This document shows, piece after piece, positions 4,270 through 44,903 of a stretch of 64,000 nucleotides of DNA. The notes under the pieces are model-generated. The model was not told the origin of the DNA. It did no database searches and saw only the letters and a list, made by a program, of their open reading frames with translations. The translations under genes were made by a program, and so were the position numbers. How positions within the stretch are numbered: the first letter of the stretch is position 1; each line of letters opens with the position of its first letter. This stretch comes from Gammaproteobacteria bacterium (GTDB lineage Bacteria; Pseudomonadota; Gammaproteobacteria; HK1), in NCBI GenBank assembly GCA_021773635.1, contig JAJFJV010000021.1:62001-126000 (forward strand), written 5' to 3'.

Positions 4270-4464
4270 TCAGGCATACTCATCAATATGTCCATCACTA
4301 TCCTCTTCGGATGCCCCATCCGCGGGCGGCGGCTCCTTTGAAGTAGCCTTTCCTTCTTCACCATCTTCATCCCTATCGCGCGGACGTCGGCGGGGAGCCG
4401 GCCTTTCACTGGGTGACAAGGGCCAGGTAGAGTGGATCGGGGGTATATCGCCGGGTTCAATCAT
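4270..4464 (-). CDS. Small Pro/Arg/Asp-rich protein ending in HIDEYA
   Basis: A 64-residue, disordered-looking protein: MIEPGDIPPIHSTWPLSPSERP, a basic RRRPRDRDED stretch, an acidic tail and the ending DGHIDEYA. I recall short uncharacterised proteins with the same IDE(Y/F)A ending beside cheW and DUF2802 genes in gammaproteobacterial flagellar clusters. Its start overlaps the stop of the 31-codon ORF before it (ATGA), which supports this frame over a 76-codon ORF in another frame (4230-4460). No domain is recognisable and no function can be given. Confidence 0.6.
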   Translation of the reverse strand: MIEPGDIPPIHSTWPLSPSERPAPRRRPRDRDEDGEEGKATSKEPPPADGASEEDSDGHIDEYA

Positions 4465-4556
4465 TGTTCAGTCGGTTTTGCCTTGTGAGCACCATTGACC
4501 TCCACCGCATCCGATCCAGACAGGCCGTCCAGGCTCAGTATTTTGTCGCTCTGCAT
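4461..4556 (-). CDS. 31-codon ORF between parC and the HIDEYA protein; possible tail of a deleted cheW
   Basis: The ORF reads MQSDKILSLDGLSGSDAVEV and 11 more residues, and its stop overlaps the next start (ATGA). It occupies the position where parP and cheW are expected. Directly upstream, in the next frame, the bases encode DID; one added base would join them as DIDRMQSDKIL, which resembles the LLDIDR...L end of CheW proteins. That reading is suggestive only. The ORF may equally be an unrelated short leader for the downstream gene. Confidence 0.35.
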   Translation of the reverse strand: MQSDKILSLDGLSGSDAVEVNGAHKAKPTEQ

Positions 4557-4646
4557 ACGTCAATATCCCGTCATTCACCCGTTCTGAGGGCTAAACATGC
4601 ACTGTTCATGCCATGATTTTTGTCCACACGGAATGGGAACCTCACC

Positions 4647-5441
4647 TTAACCTGCCTTCCTGTAGTGACAACCGTAACGCTCGGAGAGCGTTTCGAGTAG
4701 CTCCGCATAGGCCAGAACGCCACGACTATCGGGCAACACCTCCGGCAATGGCCTTCCGAGTTGGCTCGCGTCCCGGAACTTCGTATCAATGGGAATAACC
4801 CCGTCCCAAAGGGTATCGGTATAACGTTTTCGCAACGCAGCCAGGCTGTCGCAACCGGCACGTGTGCGCCGATCATAGAGCGTCGGAACGATAAGATGCT
4901 CCAGGGGCGCCCGACGAGAGCGCCCGACCATCTCCAGGGTATGTAACATCCGCTCCAGTCCCTTGAGCGCCAGATACTCCGTTTGCACCGGGATGAGCAG
5001 GGAGGAGCAAGCCGCCAGTGCATTTAGCATCAAGATGCCGAAAACCGGCGGGCAATCGACAAATACGTGCTGAAATTGCTTTTGGCCACGTTCCAGCGCC
5101 CGCCGCAGGACAAGCCCCATTCCCGCCTGTTCAGAAAGCTGCCGATCAAGTGTCGCGAGAGCCGTCGAGGCTGGCAATAGTGAGATGCCTTGCACCTCGG
5201 TAGGATGGACAACGCTCGCTAGTGGGCGCTCTTCTCCCTTCACCCCGGCCTGAAAAAGGCTATAGACACTATTTTCCACATCTTCCGGTATGCACCCAAA
5301 ATAGGAGCTGAGTGAACCGTGAGGGTCCATGTCCACGACCAACACAGATTCACCCTGTAGGCCAAGCAGGCTGGCAAGCGTCACTGTCGTGGTCGTTTTG
5401 CCCACCCCGCCCTTCTGATTGGCCACTGCCCACACGTACAT
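4647..5441 (-). CDS. parC: ParA-family ATPase, ParC-type polar chemotaxis-array anchor
   Basis: A 264-residue ParA/Soj-like ATPase with deviant Walker A KGGVGKTTTTV near the N-terminus, a Walker A' region VVDMDPHGSLSSYFG and VFVDCPPVFG. It begins 2 bases after the motD stop. In Pseudomonas and Vibrio the ParA homologue at this exact locus is ParC, which marks the old pole and recruits chemotaxis arrays through ParP and CheA. Here parP, cheW and cheA are not present next to it, so its partner is uncertain. No parB or parS-like neighbour is present, so plasmid or chromosome partitioning is unlikely. Confidence 0.85.
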   Translation of the reverse strand: MYVWAVANQKGGVGKTTTTVTLASLLGLQGESVLVVDMDPHGSLSSYFGCIPEDVENSVYSLFQAGVKGEERPLASVVHPTEVQGISLLPASTALATLDRQLSEQAGMGLVLRRALERGQKQFQHVFVDCPPVFGILMLNALAACSSLLIPVQTEYLALKGLERMLHTLEMVGRSRRAPLEHLIVPTLYDRRTRAGCDSLAALRKRYTDTLWDGVIPIDTKFRDASQLGRPLPEVLPDSRGVLAYAELLETLSERYGCHYRKAG

Positions 5442-7177: not shown

Positions 7178-7534
7178 TCACCCGGCACCGTGCAATTCAT
7201 CCAGCAAAGATTCAAATTCATCGTCGGCAATTTCTTCCGCAGAGAGATTGGCAGAGGCCGCTGATGCCTGCTTTCTTCCATGCCCCTGCAGTTCCTCCAG
7301 CACGGACTCAAATTCAGCATCGGTGATATCACCAGCGAGGGCGGCAATAGCTTCCATTGCTGCCTTCTTGGCCGCCGTTTGTTGCGAGTGGCTTTCAGAT
7401 GCTTCACTACCGTCGTGCATTTGCGCCAGCAATGAATCAAAAGCTGCCTTCCGGATCGCTTTCTCGTCACTGCCCATGGCATTAACCGCACACAGTCCGC
7501 AACGCCCAGTACTCACCGGCAGTAGCCGGGCCAT
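7178..7534 (-). CDS. Small protein with three CheA-linker-type motifs, in place of cheYZAB
   Basis: About 118 residues from the ATG at 7534, or 99 from the ATG at 7477 (MGSDEKAIRKAAF); neither start has a strong ribosome site, and the first 19 residues look unlike a domain. The protein carries three spaced copies of one motif: AFDSLLAQMHDG, EFESVLEELQGHG and EFESLLDELHGAG, joined by Ala/Ser/Gln-rich linkers. From memory this motif (EFExLLDxLHGxG) occurs in the linker after the Hpt domain of gammaproteobacterial CheA. No Hpt, kinase or CheW domain is present, and no signal or membrane segment. It sits directly between fliA and motC, where cheY, cheZ, cheA and cheB are expected. It is either a remnant of cheA or a small adaptor made from its linker; the three clean repeats favour retained function. 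Confidence 0.65.
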   Translation of the reverse strand: MARLLPVSTGRCGLCAVNAMGSDEKAIRKAAFDSLLAQMHDGSEASESHSQQTAAKKAAMEAIAALAGDITDAEFESVLEELQGHGRKQASAASANLSAEEIADDEFESLLDELHGAG

Positions 7535-15917: not shown

Positions 15918-16385
15918 CTAACTGAGTTTCTTCACCCGGTCTTGCGGGCTGATAACATCGGTCATGCGAATACCGAACTTTTCATTGACCACCACCACCT
16001 CGCCATGTGCCACCAGGGTTCCATTGGCATACACATCCAGTGGTTCTCCCGCCAGGCGTTCCAGCTCCACAACAGAACCCTGATTAAGCTGCAACAGATT
16101 GCGGATACTGATAGAGGTCCGGCCAAGTTCCATGGACAAGGTCACGGGAATATCCAGAATGGTCTCAAGATCCGGAGACTCCCCCCCACCCCCTGATTTT
16201 TCCGTCAACTTCGGCGTCGGTGCCGGCGCATAGTCCTGTTCCGCGGCCGATTCGGGCGCATCAGCAGTATCGTTGCCCGCATCATCGGCCTCGCCCTGCT
16301 CCTCCTCCACCTCTATCAAATCATCGTCCGCAGCTGCATCACCAAGTTCATCGACAGCCTCATCAGGCTTTGTTTCTTCAGCCAT
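15918..16385 (-). CDS. fliN: Flagellar motor switch protein FliN
   Basis: I take the ATG at 16385 because GGAGG stands 7 bases before it; in-frame ATGs at 16391 and 16418 fit worse. The protein has 155 residues: a long acidic N-terminal region, then the SpoA/C-ring domain ETILDIPVTLSMELGRTSISIRNLLQLNQGSVVELERLAGEPLDVYANGTLVAHGEVVVV. It overlaps the fliM stop by 8 bases. The C-ring domain is complete. Confidence 0.94.
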   Translation of the reverse strand: MAEETKPDEAVDELGDAAADDDLIEVEEEQGEADDAGNDTADAPESAAEQDYAPAPTPKLTEKSGGGGESPDLETILDIPVTLSMELGRTSISIRNLLQLNQGSVVELERLAGEPLDVYANGTLVAHGEVVVVNEKFGIRMTDVISPQDRVKKLS

Positions 16386-17223
16386 TGCCATTCCCTCCCG
16401 GGGCCTTTGCTCTACCACCCGTTCTATTCATGTGCTCCACCACCTGCAGGGCAACATTGCCCCCGGATACGCCCACCTGGGCACGAAACATCGGCACGCT
16501 CTCAGCGGTTGCGAGTACCGTATCGGGGATCTCCACGGGCACGATATCGCCCTTCTTGAGCCTTGCCAGTTGCCTCAGGGAAATCGTGGTCTCGGTCAAG
16601 GTGCTTGCCAAATTCACCTCGGCGGCCTCAATCTCCTCTCGCAGGGCCACACGCCAACGATCGTCCTTATCCGAACGATCGCTTTGCATCCCGGCATCCA
16701 GGAGATCCCGTATGGGCTCGATCATTGAATAGGGCATAGCAACATGCAGATCTCCACCGCCGCCCTCAAAATCCACGTGAAATACGGTGATCACCACGAC
16801 TTCCGTCGGAGTAACGATATTGGCGAAATGGGGATTGACCTCGGAACCTACATGTTCAAACCCCAGATCCATCACTGGCGTCCACGCTTCCTTCAGATCC
16901 TTGAGGACAAATCCCAGCACGCGTTCAATGATGCGGGTCTCTGTCGGGGTAAAATCCCGCCCCTCGATTTTTGCCTGGAAGCGTCCCTCACCGCCAAAAT
17001 AATTGTCGACGATAGAGAACACGAGATTGGGATCGAAGGTAAAAAGAGCGGTTCCCCGAAGCGGCGGAATTTTCACCAGATTCATACTGGCTGGCATAAA
17101 CAAGCCGTGCACATACTCCGCAAACTTGAGCATCTGCACCGTGCCAACCGATATCTCCGGGGGGCGTCGTAACAAATTAAACAGGCTGAGGTGAAAATGG
17201 CGCGCAAAACGCTCGTTAATCAT
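16378..17223 (-). CDS. fliM: Flagellar motor switch protein FliM, core part (middle and C-ring domains) after an in-frame stop
   Basis: 281 residues from the ATG at 17223: MINERFARHFHLSLFNLLRR, the FliG-binding middle domain (NLVKIPPLRGTALFTFDPNLVF, VDNYFGGEGRF) and a C-terminal SpoA domain (LKKGDIVPVEIPDTVLATAESVPMFRAQVG). A normal FliM has about 330 residues. The missing start is found in the same frame directly upstream (17236-17394), cut off by one TAA at 17236-17238 that replaces the residue between RGR and PTLEMINERFA. The ATG used here is 12 bases past that stop; GGAG touches it, so spacing is poor and restart would depend on coupling. If made, this core can build the C-ring but lacks the CheY-P docking peptide. 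A sequencing error cannot be excluded. Confidence 0.85.
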   Translation of the reverse strand: MINERFARHFHLSLFNLLRRPPEISVGTVQMLKFAEYVHGLFMPASMNLVKIPPLRGTALFTFDPNLVFSIVDNYFGGEGRFQAKIEGRDFTPTETRIIERVLGFVLKDLKEAWTPVMDLGFEHVGSEVNPHFANIVTPTEVVVITVFHVDFEGGGGDLHVAMPYSMIEPIRDLLDAGMQSDRSDKDDRWRVALREEIEAAEVNLASTLTETTISLRQLARLKKGDIVPVEIPDTVLATAESVPMFRAQVGVSGGNVALQVVEHMNRTGGRAKAPGGNGNG

Positions 17224-17235
17224 CTCCAGGGTCGG

Positions 17236-17394
17236 TTAACGCCCGCGTACGATGCGATCCTGGGTATTAAAGTCGTAGCTGGTAGCTACGCCAGAATCTG
17301 CCCCCGACTCATCCTCCGTTCCTACATCCCCACTATCCACTCCGTGGAGCAGCGCATCGATTTCATCCTGGGAAAGTATGTCGTCGGCGGCCAT
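17236..17394 (-). pseudogene. fliM: FliM N-terminal segment (CheY-P-binding peptide) ended by an in-frame TAA
   Basis: Starting at the ATG at 17394, 5 bases after the fliL stop, the frame encodes 52 residues: MAADDILSQDEIDALLHGVD, an acidic linker, then SYDFNTQDRIVRGR, followed by TAA. LSQDEIDALL is the conserved FliM peptide that binds phosphorylated CheY. Reading on past the stop without any shift gives PTLEMINERFARH, so the break is a single nonsense codon and not an indel. Full-length fliM would be 16378-17394, 338 codons. It may be translated as a free peptide, read through, or be dead. Confidence 0.85.
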
Positions 17395-26361: not shown

Positions 26362-27513
26362 TCATGATCTCGCTCCGGCGTCCGTTCCGAGTACGGGTAA
26401 CTCCATCACCAGGCGGGTCCCGTTTGCTGTGGAAGAAGCCAGATTTAACTCACCGCCATGGGCTTCAAAAATAGCCTTGGCCACCGCAAGCCCCAGCCCG
26501 GTGCCATTGGCCCGGGTGGTGTAAAAGGCTTCGAATATCCGGGACTGATTTTCAGCTGATACGCCGGGCCCATCATCTTTCAGGGTGATACGCACATACC
26601 CATTGCCAGACAATTCGGCACGTAAATCCAGCTGTGCGGCCTCCCCACACGCCTCCAGCGCATTGTTAACCAGATTTTGCAGGGCGCTTTGCAAGGACTC
26701 CCAGCTGCCGGAAATCATTACATCCTCTTCCAGCGCATGAAAATCGAGGTTGGCTCCCTGTCGCCTTAATTCACTTTGCAGGCCGTTGACAAACTCATCC
26801 AGCTGCGGCTTAAGTGCGATGGGTGCCACCGGGAAATCTCCAGCCCCGGCAAAGGCCAGCATGTCCTCCACCAGCTTTTCCAGTTTTCCCAGCCGCCCGA
26901 TGATGACCTCGCGCGCCCTTCCCCGTTCAAGTGAGGAGGCATAGAGAAGCGCTGAAGACAGCGGGGTACGAATCTGGTGGGCAAGTACTGCAGCAGTCCG
27001 TCCCAAGGCCGATAATCGCTCCAGACGGGATACCCGAGCCTGCAGGGTACGGGTCTCGGTAACGTCATTAATCAGGATCAATTGCCCCGGCTCATCACCG
27101 AGGGAGCGAGTGGCGATGTGGACTCGCCGGCCATCCTGGAGCGATATTTCATGGCCATCGTCGGCTCGTGGTGCAAACACCCTGGTCACCACATCCCGCC
27201 ACGCCTCGCCCAACAGGGCCCGGCCCAGCAGATCGATGGCAGCCGGATTGCAGTGACTGATAACACCCGCCGCGTCCAGCACGATGACCCCGGCAGGCAA
27301 GGCATCCAGCAAGTGCTCCAGGCGATGTGCCAGACGCTCTTTTTCCTGCAGGCGTATGGCACTTTGGTCGTGAGCATGGCTGAGCGCCTTGTTTAAGCCC
27401 TCAACCCGGTGCTCAAGATCGCGATAGGCAGACTCCAGATTACGAGAAAACTGGTTAAAGGCCTGAAAGGCTCCTTCCAATTCAGCGGCGGGAGTCGCAC
27501 TGGAGATACTCAT
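26362..27513 (-). CDS. fleS: Flagellar sensor histidine kinase FleS
   Basis: 383 residues, cytoplasmic (no membrane segment). A PAS-like domain (LLDALPAGVIVLDAAGVISHCNPAAIDLLG) is followed by a HisKA domain with phospho-acceptor His179 in LAHQIRTPLSSALL and an ATPase domain (NLVNNALEA, DDGPGV, GTGLGLAVAKAI). It pairs with FleR. Confidence 0.95.
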   Translation of the reverse strand: MSISSATPAAELEGAFQAFNQFSRNLESAYRDLEHRVEGLNKALSHAHDQSAIRLQEKERLAHRLEHLLDALPAGVIVLDAAGVISHCNPAAIDLLGRALLGEAWRDVVTRVFAPRADDGHEISLQDGRRVHIATRSLGDEPGQLILINDVTETRTLQARVSRLERLSALGRTAAVLAHQIRTPLSSALLYASSLERGRAREVIIGRLGKLEKLVEDMLAFAGAGDFPVAPIALKPQLDEFVNGLQSELRRQGANLDFHALEEDVMISGSWESLQSALQNLVNNALEACGEAAQLDLRAELSGNGYVRITLKDDGPGVSAENQSRIFEAFYTTRANGTGLGLAVAKAIFEAHGGELNLASSTANGTRLVMELPVLGTDAGARS

Positions 27514-27574
27514 AACTTAGGGCATCCTCTACGGGGGAGTGCTCAAGCTGATGAGCACCGCTTGCGAGGATATA

Positions 27575-27591
27575 AGCAAAGAGCATGCCTA
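27575..27591 (-). promoter_or_regulatory. Sigma-54 promoter of fleSR
   Basis: The minus strand reads AGGCATGCTCTTTGCTT with GG and GC 10 bases apart; the -24 box differs from TGGCAC at two positions and the -12 box is perfect. The predicted start is about 50 bases before fleS and immediately after the fleQ terminator. Confidence 0.7.
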
Positions 27592-27620
27592 AAACAAAAA
27601 ACCCCTTATAAACAGGGGCC
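27591..27620 (-). terminator. Rho-independent terminator of fleQ
   Basis: On the minus strand a hairpin CCCCTGTTTATAAGGGG is followed by a run of six T, about 35 bases after the fleQ stop. It separates the fleQ transcript from fleSR. Confidence 0.85.
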
Positions 27621-27654
27621 TATGAAGGTTAATTGTGGCGGATGCCGTAAAGCG

Positions 27655-29067
27655 TCAAAAACTGGACGCGCTTTCCTCACGCTGCAGGCCAAATTTCCGC
27701 ATCTTTTCCACCAAGGTAGTGCGCCCCATCTTCAAACGCTTGGCGGCATGGGCAACCACCCAGTCGGCCTCGTGCAAGGCCTGGCGAATGAGCATGCATT
27801 CCAGTGAGCTCAGGTGTTCCTTAAGATCCATGCCTTCATTGGGCAGAGTCCGGGTGGCTACCACGAAATTGGAAAGGTCCGAGTCCGGGTCCAGCTCAGG
27901 TGAAGCCTGACCACCACGGTACTTGTCTGGCAGGTCAGAGCTATCCACCACGCCATAGGGGAAGAGGATAATCAAACGCTCGATGAGATTGGCCAACTCA
28001 CGCACATTCCCGGGCCAGGCATAACCACATAGGGCACGAACCGCCTCTGGTGTAAGGCGAATGGAACCACGTTTCTCGTGCTCCATGCGGCTAATCAAAT
28101 CGTTGATCAGCAGCGGAAGATCCTCCACCCGCTTGCGTAGCGGTGGCATCTCCATGGGAAAGACGTTGAGCCGGTAATAGAGGTCCTCACGAAAGCGCCC
28201 GCTGGAAATCCCCTCCTCCAGATCATTGTGAGTGGCCGCAAGTATGCGTACATCAGTGGATATACTGCGCGCACCACCGACTCGCTCGAAGGTACGCTCC
28301 TGTAGAACCCGCAGCAGTTTGACCTGCATGGCCAACGGCATATCCCCGATTTCATCGAGGAACAGGGTACCGCCATCCGCCAGTTCGAAACGCCCGCGAC
28401 GAGCACTGATGGCCCCAGTAAAGGCCCCCTTCTCATGGCCAAACAGCTCGCTTTCCAGCAGATCCGGCGGGATCGCTCCACAATTGACCGGCACAAAGGG
28501 CCCTTGGCGCCGCTTGGAGTGAAAGTGGATATTGCGCGCCACCACCTCTTTGCCAGTACCCGACTCACCCAGGATAAGTACATTGGAATCACTATCCGCC
28601 ACCTGGTCGATCATCTTGCGGATACGACGTATACCCTTGCTACTACCCACCAGATTACGGAATAGCTCCAGAGAACGGCTGTTGTCAGTATCTTTTCGAT
28701 GTTGGTGGTAGAGATAAACCTTCCGCAGTGCTTCCTCGACCTCGGTGTACTTTAACGGCAGGGCCAGTTGAGCAATGCACCCCTCATTAAGCTTGGTATC
28801 GGCAATCTCCGCGGCCGGGGCCATGAAAATTATGGGCAGGTGAGGGGCAGCTTTCCTGATATCCCTGATCTGCGTCTCCAAGCCATCGCCTACACCTGAA
28901 GCCGCCAGTAGCAGAAGCGCAATATCATTCTCCTCGGCCAACAGACCGAGCGCGTCCTGGCTATCGCCCACTACTCTCGGGTGATGTTCCAGAAACTCGA
29001 AAAGACCACACACCGGTTCGTGGCGATGCTGGTCTTTATCGACAATCAGAATTTGCAACGCGTTCAT
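27655..29067 (-). CDS. fleQ: Master flagellar regulator FleQ (FlrA), sigma-54 activator
   Basis: 470 residues: a receiver-like FleQ domain ([20 protein letters not shown]) without an evident phosphorylatable aspartate motif, an AAA+ domain with GESGTGKE and [10 protein letters not shown], and a C-terminal helix-turn-helix ([24 protein letters not shown]). In Pseudomonas it starts the flagellar cascade and binds c-di-GMP and FleN; FleN is encoded at 8272-9177. It has a sigma-70-like promoter upstream and a terminator downstream, so it is a single-gene transcript. Confidence 0.95.
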
Positions 29068-29162
29068 GAACAGGGGGCCCGGCCTTTTCCCTTAGCCCAT
29101 CTAATATTCTGAAGGGACGAGCTAAAGATCTGGAGACGATCGCAAGCAGCGAAACGGTGGCT

Positions 29163-29192
29163 AGGGTAAACGTGAAAGCGGCCAGATGTCAA
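29163..29192 (-). promoter_or_regulatory. Probable sigma-70 promoter of fleQ
   Basis: On the minus strand a perfect TTGACA is followed after 18 bases by TACCCT, about 100 bases before the fleQ ATG. A housekeeping promoter for the top regulator matches the usual hierarchy. Confidence 0.55.
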
Positions 29193-29265
29193 AAAATTGG
29201 CACGCGGCAGGATTTATAGTTATTTTACTTTAACAATAGAATATAAATAATTGTTATTTATTATA

Positions 29266-29622
29266 TTATACGTTTGAGTCCTGTTCGCGCATTGTGCTGT
29301 CGTAGGCTGTTTTTGCACGTCGTCCCTGACGAATTTTACGTAGCTCCTTGCGGCTGGATTCGCGCTGCAATGCGGCCTCCACGCTGATGGACTCATTCAG
29401 TGCCAGCAGTGCCTCCCGGAGCGCAATATCTTCAGGATCGGAGCGTGGCGAAACTGATTTCAGAAGGTTCAAATGGGGTTCACGACGTTTCAACAAATCT
29501 GCGAAGGCCACCCACCGTTTCTCGCGGGCACTGACTAGCATTTTTTCGCTCAGTTCAAGGGCCTCCCGGAGGGCCTCCAGAGGTGAGGCTGACGCCCGTC
29601 GTTTTGGGGCTCGTTCACGCAC
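29266..29622 (-). CDS. fliT: FliT-like flagellar chaperone
   Basis: 118 residues from a GTG at 29622 that overlaps the fliS stop by 8 bases; the frame extends to 29661 deep inside fliS. The product is small, charged and helical (LEALREALELSEKMLVSAREKRWVAFADLLKRREPHL), as in FliT-type chaperones encoded after fliS. Conservation in this family is poor, so the name rests mainly on position, size and helix pattern. Confidence 0.65.
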   Translation of the reverse strand: MRERAPKRRASASPLEALREALELSEKMLVSAREKRWVAFADLLKRREPHLNLLKSVSPRSDPEDIALREALLALNESISVEAALQRESSRKELRKIRQGRRAKTAYDSTMREQDSNV

Positions 29623-30034
29623 TGGCCTTTTGTGCCTCTTCCAGCGATGTGGGCAAGGCATCCCAGCCAGATTTTATCTCCTGCAACAAGCCATACACCT
29701 CGGTCAAAACTTTTACATCATTATTGAAATTGGCCTCCACCAGCTTGCGACCCATGTACTCGTACAGGTTCTCAAGATTAGCGGCAATTTCACCCCCTTG
29801 CTGCATATCCAGGCTGGCACGCAGACCTTCGATAATAGAGATTGCACGGCCCAGATGCTCACCCTTCTTATCAAGATTACCGCGCATCATGTGGCCACGC
29901 GCCGACGCGATACGCGCCAGTGCACCGTCCAGCAACATCTGAATGAGGCGATGCGGACTAGCCTCCTCAACGCCAGACTGTACTCCAACCGCACTGTATT
30001 CAGACAAACCTTGTTTTGATTGACCGAAACTCAT
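29615..30034 (-). CDS. fliS: Flagellin export chaperone FliS
   Basis: 139 residues with the FliS pattern: YSAVGVQSGVEEASPHRLIQMLLDGALARIASARGHM, then KGEHLGRAISIIEGLRASLDMQQGGEIAANLENLYEYMGRKLVEAN. It binds the flagellin C-terminus and prevents polymerisation in the cytoplasm. It lies between fliD and fliT. Confidence 0.96.
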   Translation of the reverse strand: MSFGQSKQGLSEYSAVGVQSGVEEASPHRLIQMLLDGALARIASARGHMMRGNLDKKGEHLGRAISIIEGLRASLDMQQGGEIAANLENLYEYMGRKLVEANFNNDVKVLTEVYGLLQEIKSGWDALPTSLEEAQKASA

Positions 30035-30057
30035 TATCTCTCTCCAATATCTGTGCG

Positions 30058-31500
30058 CTATTGATTATTCTGGTTGATGGTCAGACCCTGCAATGCAGTG
30101 AGCTGCTGATTCAGAAAAGTGGTCGTACTTTGCAATTGATTAACGAGGGCATCCATAGCATTGAATTGTGCGAGCAGCCTGCTCTCCCGACGCAGCAAGC
30201 GCTGATCCAGCAACTCCCGCTGACGGGTAATCTCATCTATACGGTCGCTAAGCCCTGCATTGCGGCTGTCGAGCGCACCGTCAAACTTGAGAAAGCCATC
30301 GAGGACCGAGTCGAGCCGGGTGGCGATGCCATCGTTGCTGGCAAACAGATCGCCCACCGCGTCGAAATCAGTGTCCAGTGCCGTGTTGAGTACACTGCTA
30401 TCAAGCTTCAAAGAACCGTCCGCCTGGGTGGTGATGCCAATTTCCACCAGACTGTTGAAAGCCAAGTTAATCCCACTGACCTCTGACCCCAGTTCCCGCT
30501 GTATCTGGCTGCTGATTCCACGCAAGGTAGCATCTCCCAGGAGAATGCCACGGGCACCCGACTGCGCATCAAATACGGACAAATCATTGATGGTTGAGCG
30601 CAAACTGTTATAGCTGGAGACAAAGCTCTGAACGGCGCTGCTAACGGCCGCGCTATCAAGGCTGACACTCAACTCCGTCGTCGCCCCGGGGGCGGCGGAG
30701 ACCTTGAGCAGGTCTATAGTCACGCCCTCAATGGCATCACCAATGCTGTTGGTGGAACGGGTAATGGTCTGCGTATCTACCTTAATCTGGGCATCTACCG
30801 CGGCACTGAGCTGCGTCAAATTAGTGGTGCCGCTGCCAAGTGGCAATGGATCGTAGACCAGTTGAGACAGACCGCTGCTATCCGTGTGATTGCCGTCATC
30901 ATCCACCACCGTTAGCCGCAAACTGTTGTCCGTGCCCGAACCATTGGCGCTCAGCACCAAACGGCTCTCATTCCCGCCCGAGCCATCATCCACGGTGACA
31001 ATGGTGGCAGACACACTGGTATTGCCCGACGCATCGTTAATGGCACTGCGGATATCCGCCAGGGTCTTGGCGGAGGATGGGATGCTGACACTGAAATTCT
31101 CGCTTCCCGAGGTGATATTGAGGGTGCCTGAACCCACCACATCACTGGAACTGCTAAAACCGGTAGCCGCCAGCTTGTGGGCGCTGGCCAGGGTGACTAC
31201 CTCCACATCGTATGTCGCCGGCGCCGCACTGCTGGTGGCACTGACGGTAAATAGATCCGTATCCGCCGACTGGGCGGAGCGGAGTTGAAAATCGCTAAGA
31301 TCCTTGAGACTTGCCAGAGATGAGTTAAAACCGGAAAGAGCGCTCTTGAGGGAACCATTGGCCGAGATCTGGGCCTGAAAACGCGCCTCCTGGCCATTCA
31401 AACGCAGCAGGGTCGGCTCAGCCTCAGCATTCAGGATCTGGCTGACCAGTCCACTGATATCAATGCCTGATCCGGTCCCCGGTGAACTGATTGTGGCCAT
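30058..31500 (-). CDS. fliD: Flagellar filament cap protein FliD
   Basis: 480 residues from the ATG at 31500 (a GTG at 31518 is possible). The N-terminus ATISSPGTGSGIDISGLVSQILNAEAEP and the C-terminal coiled coil (ITRQRELLDQRLLRRESRLLAQFNAMDALVNQLQSTTTFLNQQL) are standard for FliD, with a variable central domain. It caps the filament and helps flagellin fold. Confidence 0.95.
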   Translation of the reverse strand: MATISSPGTGSGIDISGLVSQILNAEAEPTLLRLNGQEARFQAQISANGSLKSALSGFNSSLASLKDLSDFQLRSAQSADTDLFTVSATSSAAPATYDVEVVTLASAHKLAATGFSSSSDVVGSGTLNITSGSENFSVSIPSSAKTLADIRSAINDASGNTSVSATIVTVDDGSGGNESRLVLSANGSGTDNSLRLTVVDDDGNHTDSSGLSQLVYDPLPLGSGTTNLTQLSAAVDAQIKVDTQTITRSTNSIGDAIEGVTIDLLKVSAAPGATTELSVSLDSAAVSSAVQSFVSSYNSLRSTINDLSVFDAQSGARGILLGDATLRGISSQIQRELGSEVSGINLAFNSLVEIGITTQADGSLKLDSSVLNTALDTDFDAVGDLFASNDGIATRLDSVLDGFLKFDGALDSRNAGLSDRIDEITRQRELLDQRLLRRESRLLAQFNAMDALVNQLQSTTTFLNQQLTALQGLTINQNNQ

Positions 31501-31569
31501 TCCCGCCTTTCTCCTCACAGCGCCGGTAACTTGGGCTCCAGCGCCACCCTCTCACTTAGAACCTGAAAT

Positions 31570-31591
31570 GTTTCCCCCTCTCGGGGGAAAC
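31570..31591. other. Perfect hairpin between flaG and fliD
   Basis: GTTTCCCCC and GGGGGAAAC form a 9-bp stem with a 4-base loop. No T-run follows on the minus strand, so it looks like an RNA processing or stability element rather than a full terminator. Confidence 0.5.
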
Positions 31592-31643
31592 AACAACAAA
31601 ACACAGGCCATCCAGGCCCCACTGTGCCTGCCTGTTTGTCAGG

Positions 31644-32087
31644 CTAGGCCCTGATACCCGCTAGCAAACCACCATCCAGGTTCTCCAGATGCTCAAGTAC
31701 CTGTAGTACTTCATCTGGTGGAATCTGCCGGACAATCTCTTCCGTTTCCTTGTTTATCACCGTGATAATCGTACGTCCCGAATCCTCCGAGACACTAAAC
31801 TGCAACTCACGGTGAAGACTCTGAACAATATCGTTCAACTGCTCCACAGCCGCCGACAGACTCTGCTTATCCAGATTTTGCTCATTTAAGCGCTGTTCAT
31901 CAGTGACTTGAGATTGGTTACTCACAGGTCTTGTTTCCAATACCGCAACCACACTACCTCCCGCGGGAGGGCTCTCTGCGGCACTGGAAGCTACAATCCT
32001 GGAGCTTTCCGTCTGGCCAGTGGGCACATCAGCAGGTTTGGCAGTCACACGCCCGGCGATTTGTGTTGATAAATCGATGGAAATCAT
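31644..32087 (-). CDS. flaG: FlaG family protein
   Basis: 147 residues from the ATG at 32087 (GGTGAG upstream). A Ser/Thr-rich N-terminal half is followed by the FlaG domain: AVEQLNDIVQSLHRELQFSVSEDSGRTIITVINKETEEIVRQIPPDEVL. FlaG proteins influence filament length; it sits between flagellin and fliD as in Pseudomonas and Vibrio. Confidence 0.93.
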   Translation of the reverse strand: MISIDLSTQIAGRVTAKPADVPTGQTESSRIVASSAAESPPAGGSVVAVLETRPVSNQSQVTDEQRLNEQNLDKQSLSAAVEQLNDIVQSLHRELQFSVSEDSGRTIITVINKETEEIVRQIPPDEVLQVLEHLENLDGGLLAGIRA

Positions 32088-32122
32088 GATGCTCACCACC
32101 CTACGCACTTAGTGTACGGATG

Positions 32123-32153
32123 ATGCCCGGAACCCCCGACGGGTCCCGGGCAT
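32123..32153 (-). terminator. GC-rich hairpin after flagellin gene (partial terminator or 3' stabiliser)
   Basis: About 20 bases after the fliC stop, ATGCCCGG...CCC pairs with GGG...CCGGGCAT. There is no T-run. It probably lets fliC mRNA outnumber the downstream flaG-fliDST message. Confidence 0.55.
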
Positions 32154-32172
32154 GTCTCCGCCAAATGGCCTC

Positions 32173-33729
32173 TTACTGCAACAGCGCCAGCACGTTCTGC
32201 GGCAAGGAATTGGCCTGGGACAGAATCGACAGACCTGCCTGCTGCAGAATCTGGGCGCGGGCCAGTGCCGCAGTTTCCTGGGCAAAGTCCGCATCCGTGA
32301 TTCGTGACCGGGCAGCACTGATGTTCTCCGCCGAGGTTTCGAGGTTGGCAATGGTGGATTCAAACCGACTCTGTACCGCACCAAAAGTACCGCGCAGTAC
32401 GTCGATATCCGTAATCGCCTGGTCGATACGGTTGATAGAAGCATCAATGGCCGTATTGGTCAGAATGTTGGACTGACTCAGGGTCGAGGCATTACTGGTT
32501 GCCGTACCAGCATCCGCAATACCGGTGAAGATAACCTCATTACCCACATCATCGGTAGTGACAGTGATATTGGCATTAGAAGACAAGGTCACGGTGCCCT
32601 TGAAGATATTCAGCTCCTGCTCCGTTCCTACTGCTCCGCTACCCACCAGGGTATTGCCAAAAAACCCGACAACCTGGTCAGTCACATCGGAGCCCGCGGT
32701 ACCGAGATTCTCATTTATCTCGATGTTACGGCCATCTGAGGCAGTGAGGACCAGATCTCCACCCGAAGTGGCATTGGCAGTCACGCCGGTGATGGTTTGC
32801 TGGGCATTGATCACCGAGACCAGATCCGCAGCGGTTGAAACGGTTTGTGCCCCTTCAGTCTGCTGGGTAATCTGCTGGCCGTTGATGCCCAGTGTGTAGG
32901 TGAGCGTATCGTCCGTACCCACATTGTCGGTAAAGGCGAAAGCGGCAATTTGCGCCGCGGTGAAGGTGGTCGTAGCCGCCCCGACGGTTGCGCTAACATT
33001 ATGATTGTCCGTCGATGCATTGATGGCGGCTCCGATAGCAAAGGCACTGCCATCACCCCGCCCCGATGTACCGTCAGTCGCTGCTGCGACATCAAAGCCA
33101 TTGATGTTGATCTCACCGGTAGCATCCACATCCAGCGTATCGACGATGCTGGCTGCCGCGGCACCCTGCGCCAGAGTTGTAAGATCCGGCACCTGGTAGA
33201 CCACCGTGGCGAAGTTGCCAATGGCGTTGGTGCGCATACTGGAACTGACGTTGACATCAATGGTCTCGCCGACGTTGGCACCTACCTGGAAGACACTGGT
33301 ACCGAGAGTACCGTCCAGCACCTTGCGGCCGTTGAATGCAGTGGTCTGGGCCACTCGATCATTCTCCGAAAGCAGTTGCTGGAATTCCGCGTCGAGAGAG
33401 GCGCGGTCAGCCGCGGTATTGGTGGCGTTACGTGACTGCACCGAGAGCTCACGCATCCGCTGCAGGTTGTTGGTCATCTGCTGCAAGGCGCCCTCACCAG
33501 TCTGCGCCAGGGAGATGGCGTCTGCCGCGTTCCGACCGGCCTGATTCATGCCTCGAATCTGAGCGGTCATACGGTCTGAAATTGCCAGTCCCGCAGCGTC
33601 GTCCTTGGCTGAGTTAATACGAAGACCGGAAGAAATCCGCTGCAGGGAGGTTGCCAGGTCTCCCGCGGTACGGTTCAAGTTCCGCTGTGCATTCAAGGAT
33701 GCAATATTTGTGTTGATGATTTGTGCCAT
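32173..33729 (-). CDS. fliC: Flagellin
   Basis: 518 residues. The N-terminal D0/D1 segment MAQIINTNIASLNAQRNLNRTAGDLATSLQRISSGLRINSAKDDAAGLAISDRM and the C-terminal RIDQAITDIDVLRGTFGAVQSRFESTIANLETSAENISAARSRITDADFAQETA...LLQ are conserved; the centre (about 170-400) is a variable surface domain. It is the only flagellin in the window. A sigma-28 promoter and a 5' stem-loop precede it. Confidence 0.97.
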   Translation of the reverse strand: MAQIINTNIASLNAQRNLNRTAGDLATSLQRISSGLRINSAKDDAAGLAISDRMTAQIRGMNQAGRNAADAISLAQTGEGALQQMTNNLQRMRELSVQSRNATNTAADRASLDAEFQQLLSENDRVAQTTAFNGRKVLDGTLGTSVFQVGANVGETIDVNVSSSMRTNAIGNFATVVYQVPDLTTLAQGAAAASIVDTLDVDATGEININGFDVAAATDGTSGRGDGSAFAIGAAINASTDNHNVSATVGAATTTFTAAQIAAFAFTDNVGTDDTLTYTLGINGQQITQQTEGAQTVSTAADLVSVINAQQTITGVTANATSGGDLVLTASDGRNIEINENLGTAGSDVTDQVVGFFGNTLVGSGAVGTEQELNIFKGTVTLSSNANITVTTDDVGNEVIFTGIADAGTATSNASTLSQSNILTNTAIDASINRIDQAITDIDVLRGTFGAVQSRFESTIANLETSAENISAARSRITDADFAQETAALARAQILQQAGLSILSQANSLPQNVLALLQ

Positions 33730-44203: not shown

Positions 44204-44205
44204 CT

Positions 44206-44613
44206 CTACTCACCCCTGATTGCAGTTAACAAGGTTCTGGCACGGCCCTCAACGAAACGCAGGCTGGCCTGGTAACGCAGGGCATTGTCGGTAAAGGCCG
44301 CTTGCTCCACCTGAGTCTCCACGGTGTTGCCATCAAGAGAGGGCTGCATCGGATTGCGATAGCGAAGCGGAAAGCCCCCGGCACCACTCTCGAGCGACTT
44401 AAGGTGACCGGCGGAACTACGCTTTAGCTGCACTGGTGGCAAACCCCGACGTCCCTGCTCGGTGGCCAGAACCTGCGAAAAATCGATATCCCGCGCCTTG
44501 TATCCCGGGGTATCCGCATTGGCAAGATTGGCGGCGAGCACCTCGGCACGCTGGCTTCTCAGCATCATTGCCTGAGCGTGTACTCCATATAATTTGTCTG
44601 TTGCGAGTGGCAC
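44206..44613 (-). CDS. flgB: Flagellar proximal rod protein FlgB
   Basis: I take a GTG at 44613 with GGAGG 8 bases upstream, giving 135 residues that start with PLATDKLYGVHAQAMMLRSQRAEVLAANLANADTPGYKARDIDF, the normal FlgB N-terminus. The frame extends to 44679, but that stretch contains the sigma-54 promoter and would add non-family sequence. First gene of the flgB-L operon. Confidence 0.95.
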   Translation of the reverse strand: MPLATDKLYGVHAQAMMLRSQRAEVLAANLANADTPGYKARDIDFSQVLATEQGRRGLPPVQLKRSSAGHLKSLESGAGGFPLRYRNPMQPSLDGNTVETQVEQAAFTDNALRYQASLRFVEGRARTLLTAIRGE

Positions 44614-44648
44614 CGATACAGCCTCCAGATATTTCCTGGAGATGTAAT

Positions 44649-44665
44649 AGCAGAAATCGTGCCAA
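44649..44665 (-). promoter_or_regulatory. Sigma-54 promoter of flgB operon
   Basis: The minus strand reads TTGGCACGATTTCTGCTA; the -24 box is perfect and GG and GC are 10 bases apart. The predicted start is about 25 bases before the flgB GTG. Confidence 0.88.
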
Positions 44666-44852
44666 TAGCAAAAGCCCAACTAAAAGGCCGTTGTCGGGGC
44701 TGACCGGGTGGAGGGATGCAAAAAATGGGGGCAAGCTCCTGCCCCGGGCGGCAAACGGCTGCCACGTTGCATGGACGCCAAATGGTGCCCCGAATCCGGG
44801 TAAAGCCAGGATATTCCTCACCAGCTTATGTAGCCGCTGTAGAGAACACCGC
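44666..44852. other. Core of the flgB/flgA divergent control region
   Basis: It lies between the two back-to-back sigma-54 promoters. It holds a GC-rich hairpin (GGGGGCAAGCTCCTGCCCC at 44725-44743 approximately) and must contain any FleR or FleQ binding site. In Vibrio and Shewanella cheV and cheR lie at this junction; no trace of either is seen. Confidence 0.6.
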
Positions 44853-44868
44853 TGGCACGTCTCGTGCA
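44853..44868 (+). promoter_or_regulatory. Sigma-54 promoter of flgA
   Basis: The plus strand reads CTGGCACGTCTCGTGCA with GG and GC 10 bases apart; one mismatch in the -12 box. The predicted start near 44879 is 25 bases before flgA. Confidence 0.82.
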
Positions 44869-44903
44869 TTGGTTTCGCCAACGCCTTAAGGAGAAAGCAG
44901 CCA

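Follow-up and report, generated by a model that had tools for sequence, protein, structure and literature searches.

The che locus and its remnant

The window, a 64-kb stretch of DNA, belongs to a genome (G000) of 2.55 Mb, 99.6% complete and divided into 46 contigs. In two other genomes of the genus, G001 and G002, the intact gene order is fliA-cheY-cheZ-cheA-cheB-motC-motD-parC-cheW. In the window, a single short ORF stands between fliA and motC, as the initial annotation had placed it, and a ParC-like ATPase is encoded by the third gene downstream. The expectation that cheY-cheZ-cheA-cheB should lie at this place agrees with both same-genus genomes and with dozens of other loci. The features discussed below are the following.

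7178..7534, minus strand: stand-alone ORF of 118 aa, a cheA remnant by homology to same-genus CheA
7469..7534, minus strand: residues 1-22, of no recognisable origin (no match in the che interval of the relatives)
7181..7468, minus strand: residues 23-118, the CheA-linker-homologous part (57-63% identity with same-genus linkers)
7409..7444, minus strand: motif 1, AFDSLLAQMHDG, residues 31-42 (matching motif in the CheA of G001 and G002; modelled helix)
7277..7315, minus strand: motif 2, EFESVLEELQGHG, residues 74-86, the most altered copy (alignment with relatives)
7181..7219, minus strand: motif 3, EFESLLDELHGAG, residues 106-118, with the stop codon immediately after (alignment with relatives)
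4647..5441, minus strand: parC (ParA-like ATPase), retained, relaxed yet still constrained (domain and codon evidence)
4465..4646, minus strand: site of cheW loss (occupied by cheW in G001 and G002)
17236..17394, minus strand: N-terminal piece of fliM (CheY-binding peptide), severed by an in-frame TAA (comparison with G002)
44204..44903, minus strand: site of cheR-cheV loss (G002 has both genes here, with the same flanking genes)

The ORF runs from an ATG, which sits three bases past the fliA stop codon, to a TGA. The three peptides that had been quoted from it are all found as stated, the F residues of successive motifs being 43 and then 32 residues apart. The protein has no Pfam or NCBIfam match above cut-off; Pex19, TAC_15 and SHOCT identities were considered and rejected, their matches all being below cut-off (14.3 bits for SHOCT, PF09851, against a gathering cut-off of 27). 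No significant relative was found among solved structures. AlphaFold2 places a helix at each motif and one more in the stretch that separates motifs 1 and 2; the connecting linkers are modelled with low confidence (pTM 0.24). As modelled, the protein is a set of short helices on a string, without a fold.

Descent from the CheA linker

The ORF matches the CheA proteins of its genus-mates with E values of 8.5e-28 and 1.9e-25, so that the likeness is not due to chance. Over the three-motif stretch it is 63% and 57% identical to the CheA linkers of these two genomes, and the homology spans 96 residues. In the parent CheA the Hpt domain ends near residue 108, the motifs lie at about 160-250 and P3 begins at about 301, which places the parental motif segment between P1 and P3 and bears out the earlier assignment of the motifs to the segment following Hpt. 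The same-genus CheAs contain the same three motifs in identical order and with similar spacing, G002 carrying AAFDSLLSQMHDG, ITDDEFESLLDELHG and again ITDDEFESLLDELHG at the corresponding places. The remaining CheA domains are gone from the ORF, as had been claimed: the Hpt (P1) domain present in the parent CheAs is absent from it, as are H-kinase_dim, HATPase_c and CheW domains. Judged by this homology, what survives in the ORF is a middle section of CheA, the chemotaxis kinase. Compared with the CheA of ParC-encoding gammaproteobacteria, it shares with the P1-P3 linker the 96-residue homology, the three motifs and the locus, but lacks the catalytic and coupling domains and is encoded alone.

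The initial annotation had proposed an amplification to three copies of a motif known once per CheA. This must be abandoned, because the parental linkers already carry three copies and because linkers across the class carry from one to seven (mostly two to four, at fliA-adjacent or same-class loci).

Loss of the chemotaxis genes

Genome-wide, we found in G000 no CheA dimerisation domain (H-kinase_dim), no MCP, no flagellar CheW or CheV and no CheY ortholog. The best CheY match, at 34% identity, lies inside a larger protein, and a CheY relocated elsewhere in the genome was rejected. Within the 64-kb window the CheZ, CheB, CheW and CheR-CheV of G002 have no match, and the places of cheZ, cheB and cheR no longer hold these genes. 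The chemotaxis genes are cleanly gone from three places, and at the che locus only the linker piece and parC survive of the chemotaxis set. The remaining flagellar cluster is collinear with that of G002 and apparently intact except for fliM. A single in-frame TAA, where G002 has TTA, divides this gene on the minus strand into 17236-17394 and 16378-17223; its CheY-binding N-terminus (DDILSQDEIDALL) survives whole as an ORF of 52 codons. An ATG (MINERFAR) offers the FliM core a possible restart.

Some minor observations belong here. Contig C23 of G000 (about 27500-33000, L131) encodes three CheW-domain proteins of 230, 808 and 140 aa next to a response regulator frame of 268 aa; the CheW domains left in the genome are confined to this separate cluster, its proteins show no kinase domain, and size-matched CheW-domain proteins are also grouped in G001 and G002. 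Between the lost cheW and a DUF2802 gene lies an ORF of 64 aa (MIEPGDIPPIHSTWPLSP..., 4270-4464, minus strand), with 66% identity in G002. In Methylobacter tundripaludum (L103) and Methylovulum (L112), fliA is followed directly by motC-motD, with no che genes, ParC or linker remnant.

The motif and ParC across the class

We surveyed 369 genomes of the class with a linker profile, ParC being called at E <= 1e-50. The profile matches 142 genomes and ParC is found in 134. A CheA dimerisation domain is present in 193 genomes; of these, motif and ParC occur together in 129, the motif alone in 12, ParC alone in 3 and neither in 49 (Fisher p about 1e-30, phylogeny being ignored). The inspected ParC-only cases lie on truncated contigs; G229, a candidate for ParC without CheA, was set aside as a contig end, CheA being present. 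Among the matches listed, the ORF described here is the only stand-alone match established outside cheA, and the other short frames inspected, in five regions, turned out to be contig ends or N gaps.

No P2 or CheY-binding Pfam family was detected in 27 CheAs from fliA-adjacent or same-class loci, nor in the ORF, and the motifs of such P2-less CheAs occupy the place where P2 would be. SHOCT matches are given by 20 of the 27, presumably owing to the motif. When the motif matrix was run against 1,549 ORFs, the FliM N-terminus (SQDEIDALL) was the best-resembling recurrent family other than CheA. Both are short acidic-hydrophobic helices of the form E-phi-D/E-x-L-L, but the FliM score is weak, at 7-12 bits where true copies reach about 40, and its protein context is different; the two are likened by motif score, homology aside. 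A literature search for docking motifs of P2-less CheAs or for a comparable loss of chemotaxis returned nothing.

It had also been suggested that the motif segment may correspond to the LID (localization and inheritance domain) of Vibrio CheA, a region placed before P3, which is exclusive to ParC/ParP carriers and binds ParP (PMC5706961, PMC7534058). The pre-P3 position in the parent, together with the co-occurrence with ParC, circumstantially supports this identification. The reported partner of the Vibrio LID is ParP, not ParC (PMC5706961), and we found no ParP in G000, G001 or G002. The likeness is one of position and co-occurrence, and the ORF differs from the LID in being detached from CheA and in belonging to a genus without ParP. 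At its loci L129 and L130 this genus has ParC and a motif-bearing CheA without ParP; most loci of the same gene order differ in this respect.

Selection on the retained pieces

A three-branch codon model was applied to the linker, FliM and parC. For the linker, omega is 0.35 on the G000 branch and 0.18 in the relatives. Neither equality with the relatives (p=0.27) nor neutrality (p=0.08) is rejected, and parC, with an omega of 0.148 against 0.048 on the other branches (p=0.002), is relaxed but far from neutral. The earlier statement that the ORF is not the product of simple decay therefore receives a divided answer. The N-terminal peptide of FliM shows an omega of 0.49 on the G000 branch against 0.17 elsewhere, while the FliM core is strongly constrained (0.08).

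If the rises in omega reflect time spent under neutrality, each codon would have taken up about 0.2-0.4 neutral substitutions since the genes were lost. In neutral simulations with 0.3-0.5 substitutions per codon and assumed indel rates, the frame stayed open in about 1-18% of the runs. Changed positions amount to 5 of 40 in the motifs against 8 of 23 in the spacers. Motifs 1 and 3 have hardly changed. Motif 2 carries four changes, of which three fall on residues that do not vary among nine CheAs. The retained piece begins shortly before motif 1 and ends directly after motif 3. A recent relic would account for the parallel relaxation of the linker, the FliM peptide and ParC, whereas a kept adaptor would explain why the piece is trimmed so exactly and why its frame is still open, and the evidence from selection is balanced between the two.

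Discussion

The most likely reading, in our view, is that the ORF is a decaying leftover of cheA in a flagellated lineage that has lost chemotaxis. This lineage dismantled chemotaxis while keeping its flagellum: the comparison with the two same-genus genomes shows deletions on both sides that removed cheY, cheZ, the Hpt and P3-P4-P5 parts of CheA, and cheB. A flexible linker with three short helical motifs was left open beside the fliA stop codon. Because they sit in place of the P2 domain, we infer that the ParC system, which positions the arrays, probably docked on the parental motifs, and that CheY possibly did so too. The fragment would now be without an essential job and, as the codon rates suggest, its frame would be open mainly because the loss on this branch is recent. 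The disappearance of the CheA dimerisation domain, the MCPs, flagellar CheW and CheV, and CheY favours this reading, as do homology and synteny with the relatives, the ancestral state of the three motifs, the raised omega of the linker, the FliM peptide and parC, the nonsense codon that detaches the CheY-binding peptide from the motor, and the alteration of motif 2 at conserved residues. It is opposed by the trimming of the piece to its motifs, by the low fraction of neutral runs that remain open, by an omega suggested to be below 1, and by motif positions that are less changed than the spacers. Moreover, the clean loss of che genes from three places does not look very recent, which also counts against a relic.

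The trimming and the survival of just the linker and parC from the chemotaxis set at the locus could instead mean that selection has kept the linker as a free adaptor. As the genus lacks ParP, its three helices would bind ParC directly, tethering a polar client or the flagellar pole. The class-wide pairing of motif and ParC, whose inspected ParC-only exceptions lie on truncated contigs, and the reported position of the ParP/ParC-linked LID before P3 (PMC5706961, PMC7534058) lend themselves to this idea. We nevertheless judge it unlikely, as the LID partner known from Vibrio is the missing ParP, ParC is itself relaxed threefold in G000, one motif is degrading, and the co-occurrence may stem from the shared ancestry of the entire flagellar-chemotaxis cluster. 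Were it true, the linker and ParC would act at the pole of a cell that has no chemotaxis, in a role that does not depend on chemosensory arrays.

The 27 CheAs without a detectable P2 family and the resemblance of the motif to the FliM N-terminus raise the further idea that the motifs are CheY-docking peptides replacing P2, the remnant now binding another receiver domain or acting as a sink. This appears improbable: no CheY ortholog is left in G000, the resemblance is far below the score of true copies, V. cholerae CheA is reported with both P2 and LID (PMC7534058), and CheY docking does not predict the association with ParC. An assembly artefact, in which the remainder of cheYZAB exists but is absent from the contig, could be imagined for a genome in 46 contigs. 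It is very hard to reconcile with losses that are genome-wide and with the absence of cheW and cheR-cheV at two other places on the same contig, where the flanks are intact, and we regard it as highly improbable.

If the ORF is indeed a relic, the window would record a clean loss of chemotaxis in a flagellated gammaproteobacterium, with leftovers (CheA linker, ParC and FliM peptide) that can still be read. Beyond this genome, ParC-encoding gammaproteobacteria have between P1 and P3 of CheA a linker without detectable P2, with one to seven copies of a ITDDEFEALLDQLHG-like motif and a tight co-occurrence with ParC. This motif offers a short, testable peptide for candidate docking of ParC/ParP or CheY. 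P2-less CheAs with a ITDDEFEALLDQLHG-like motif are encoded, for example, at L006, L070, L073 and L079; the CheA frame at L006, from a MAG, is 1073 aa long and holds seven copies.
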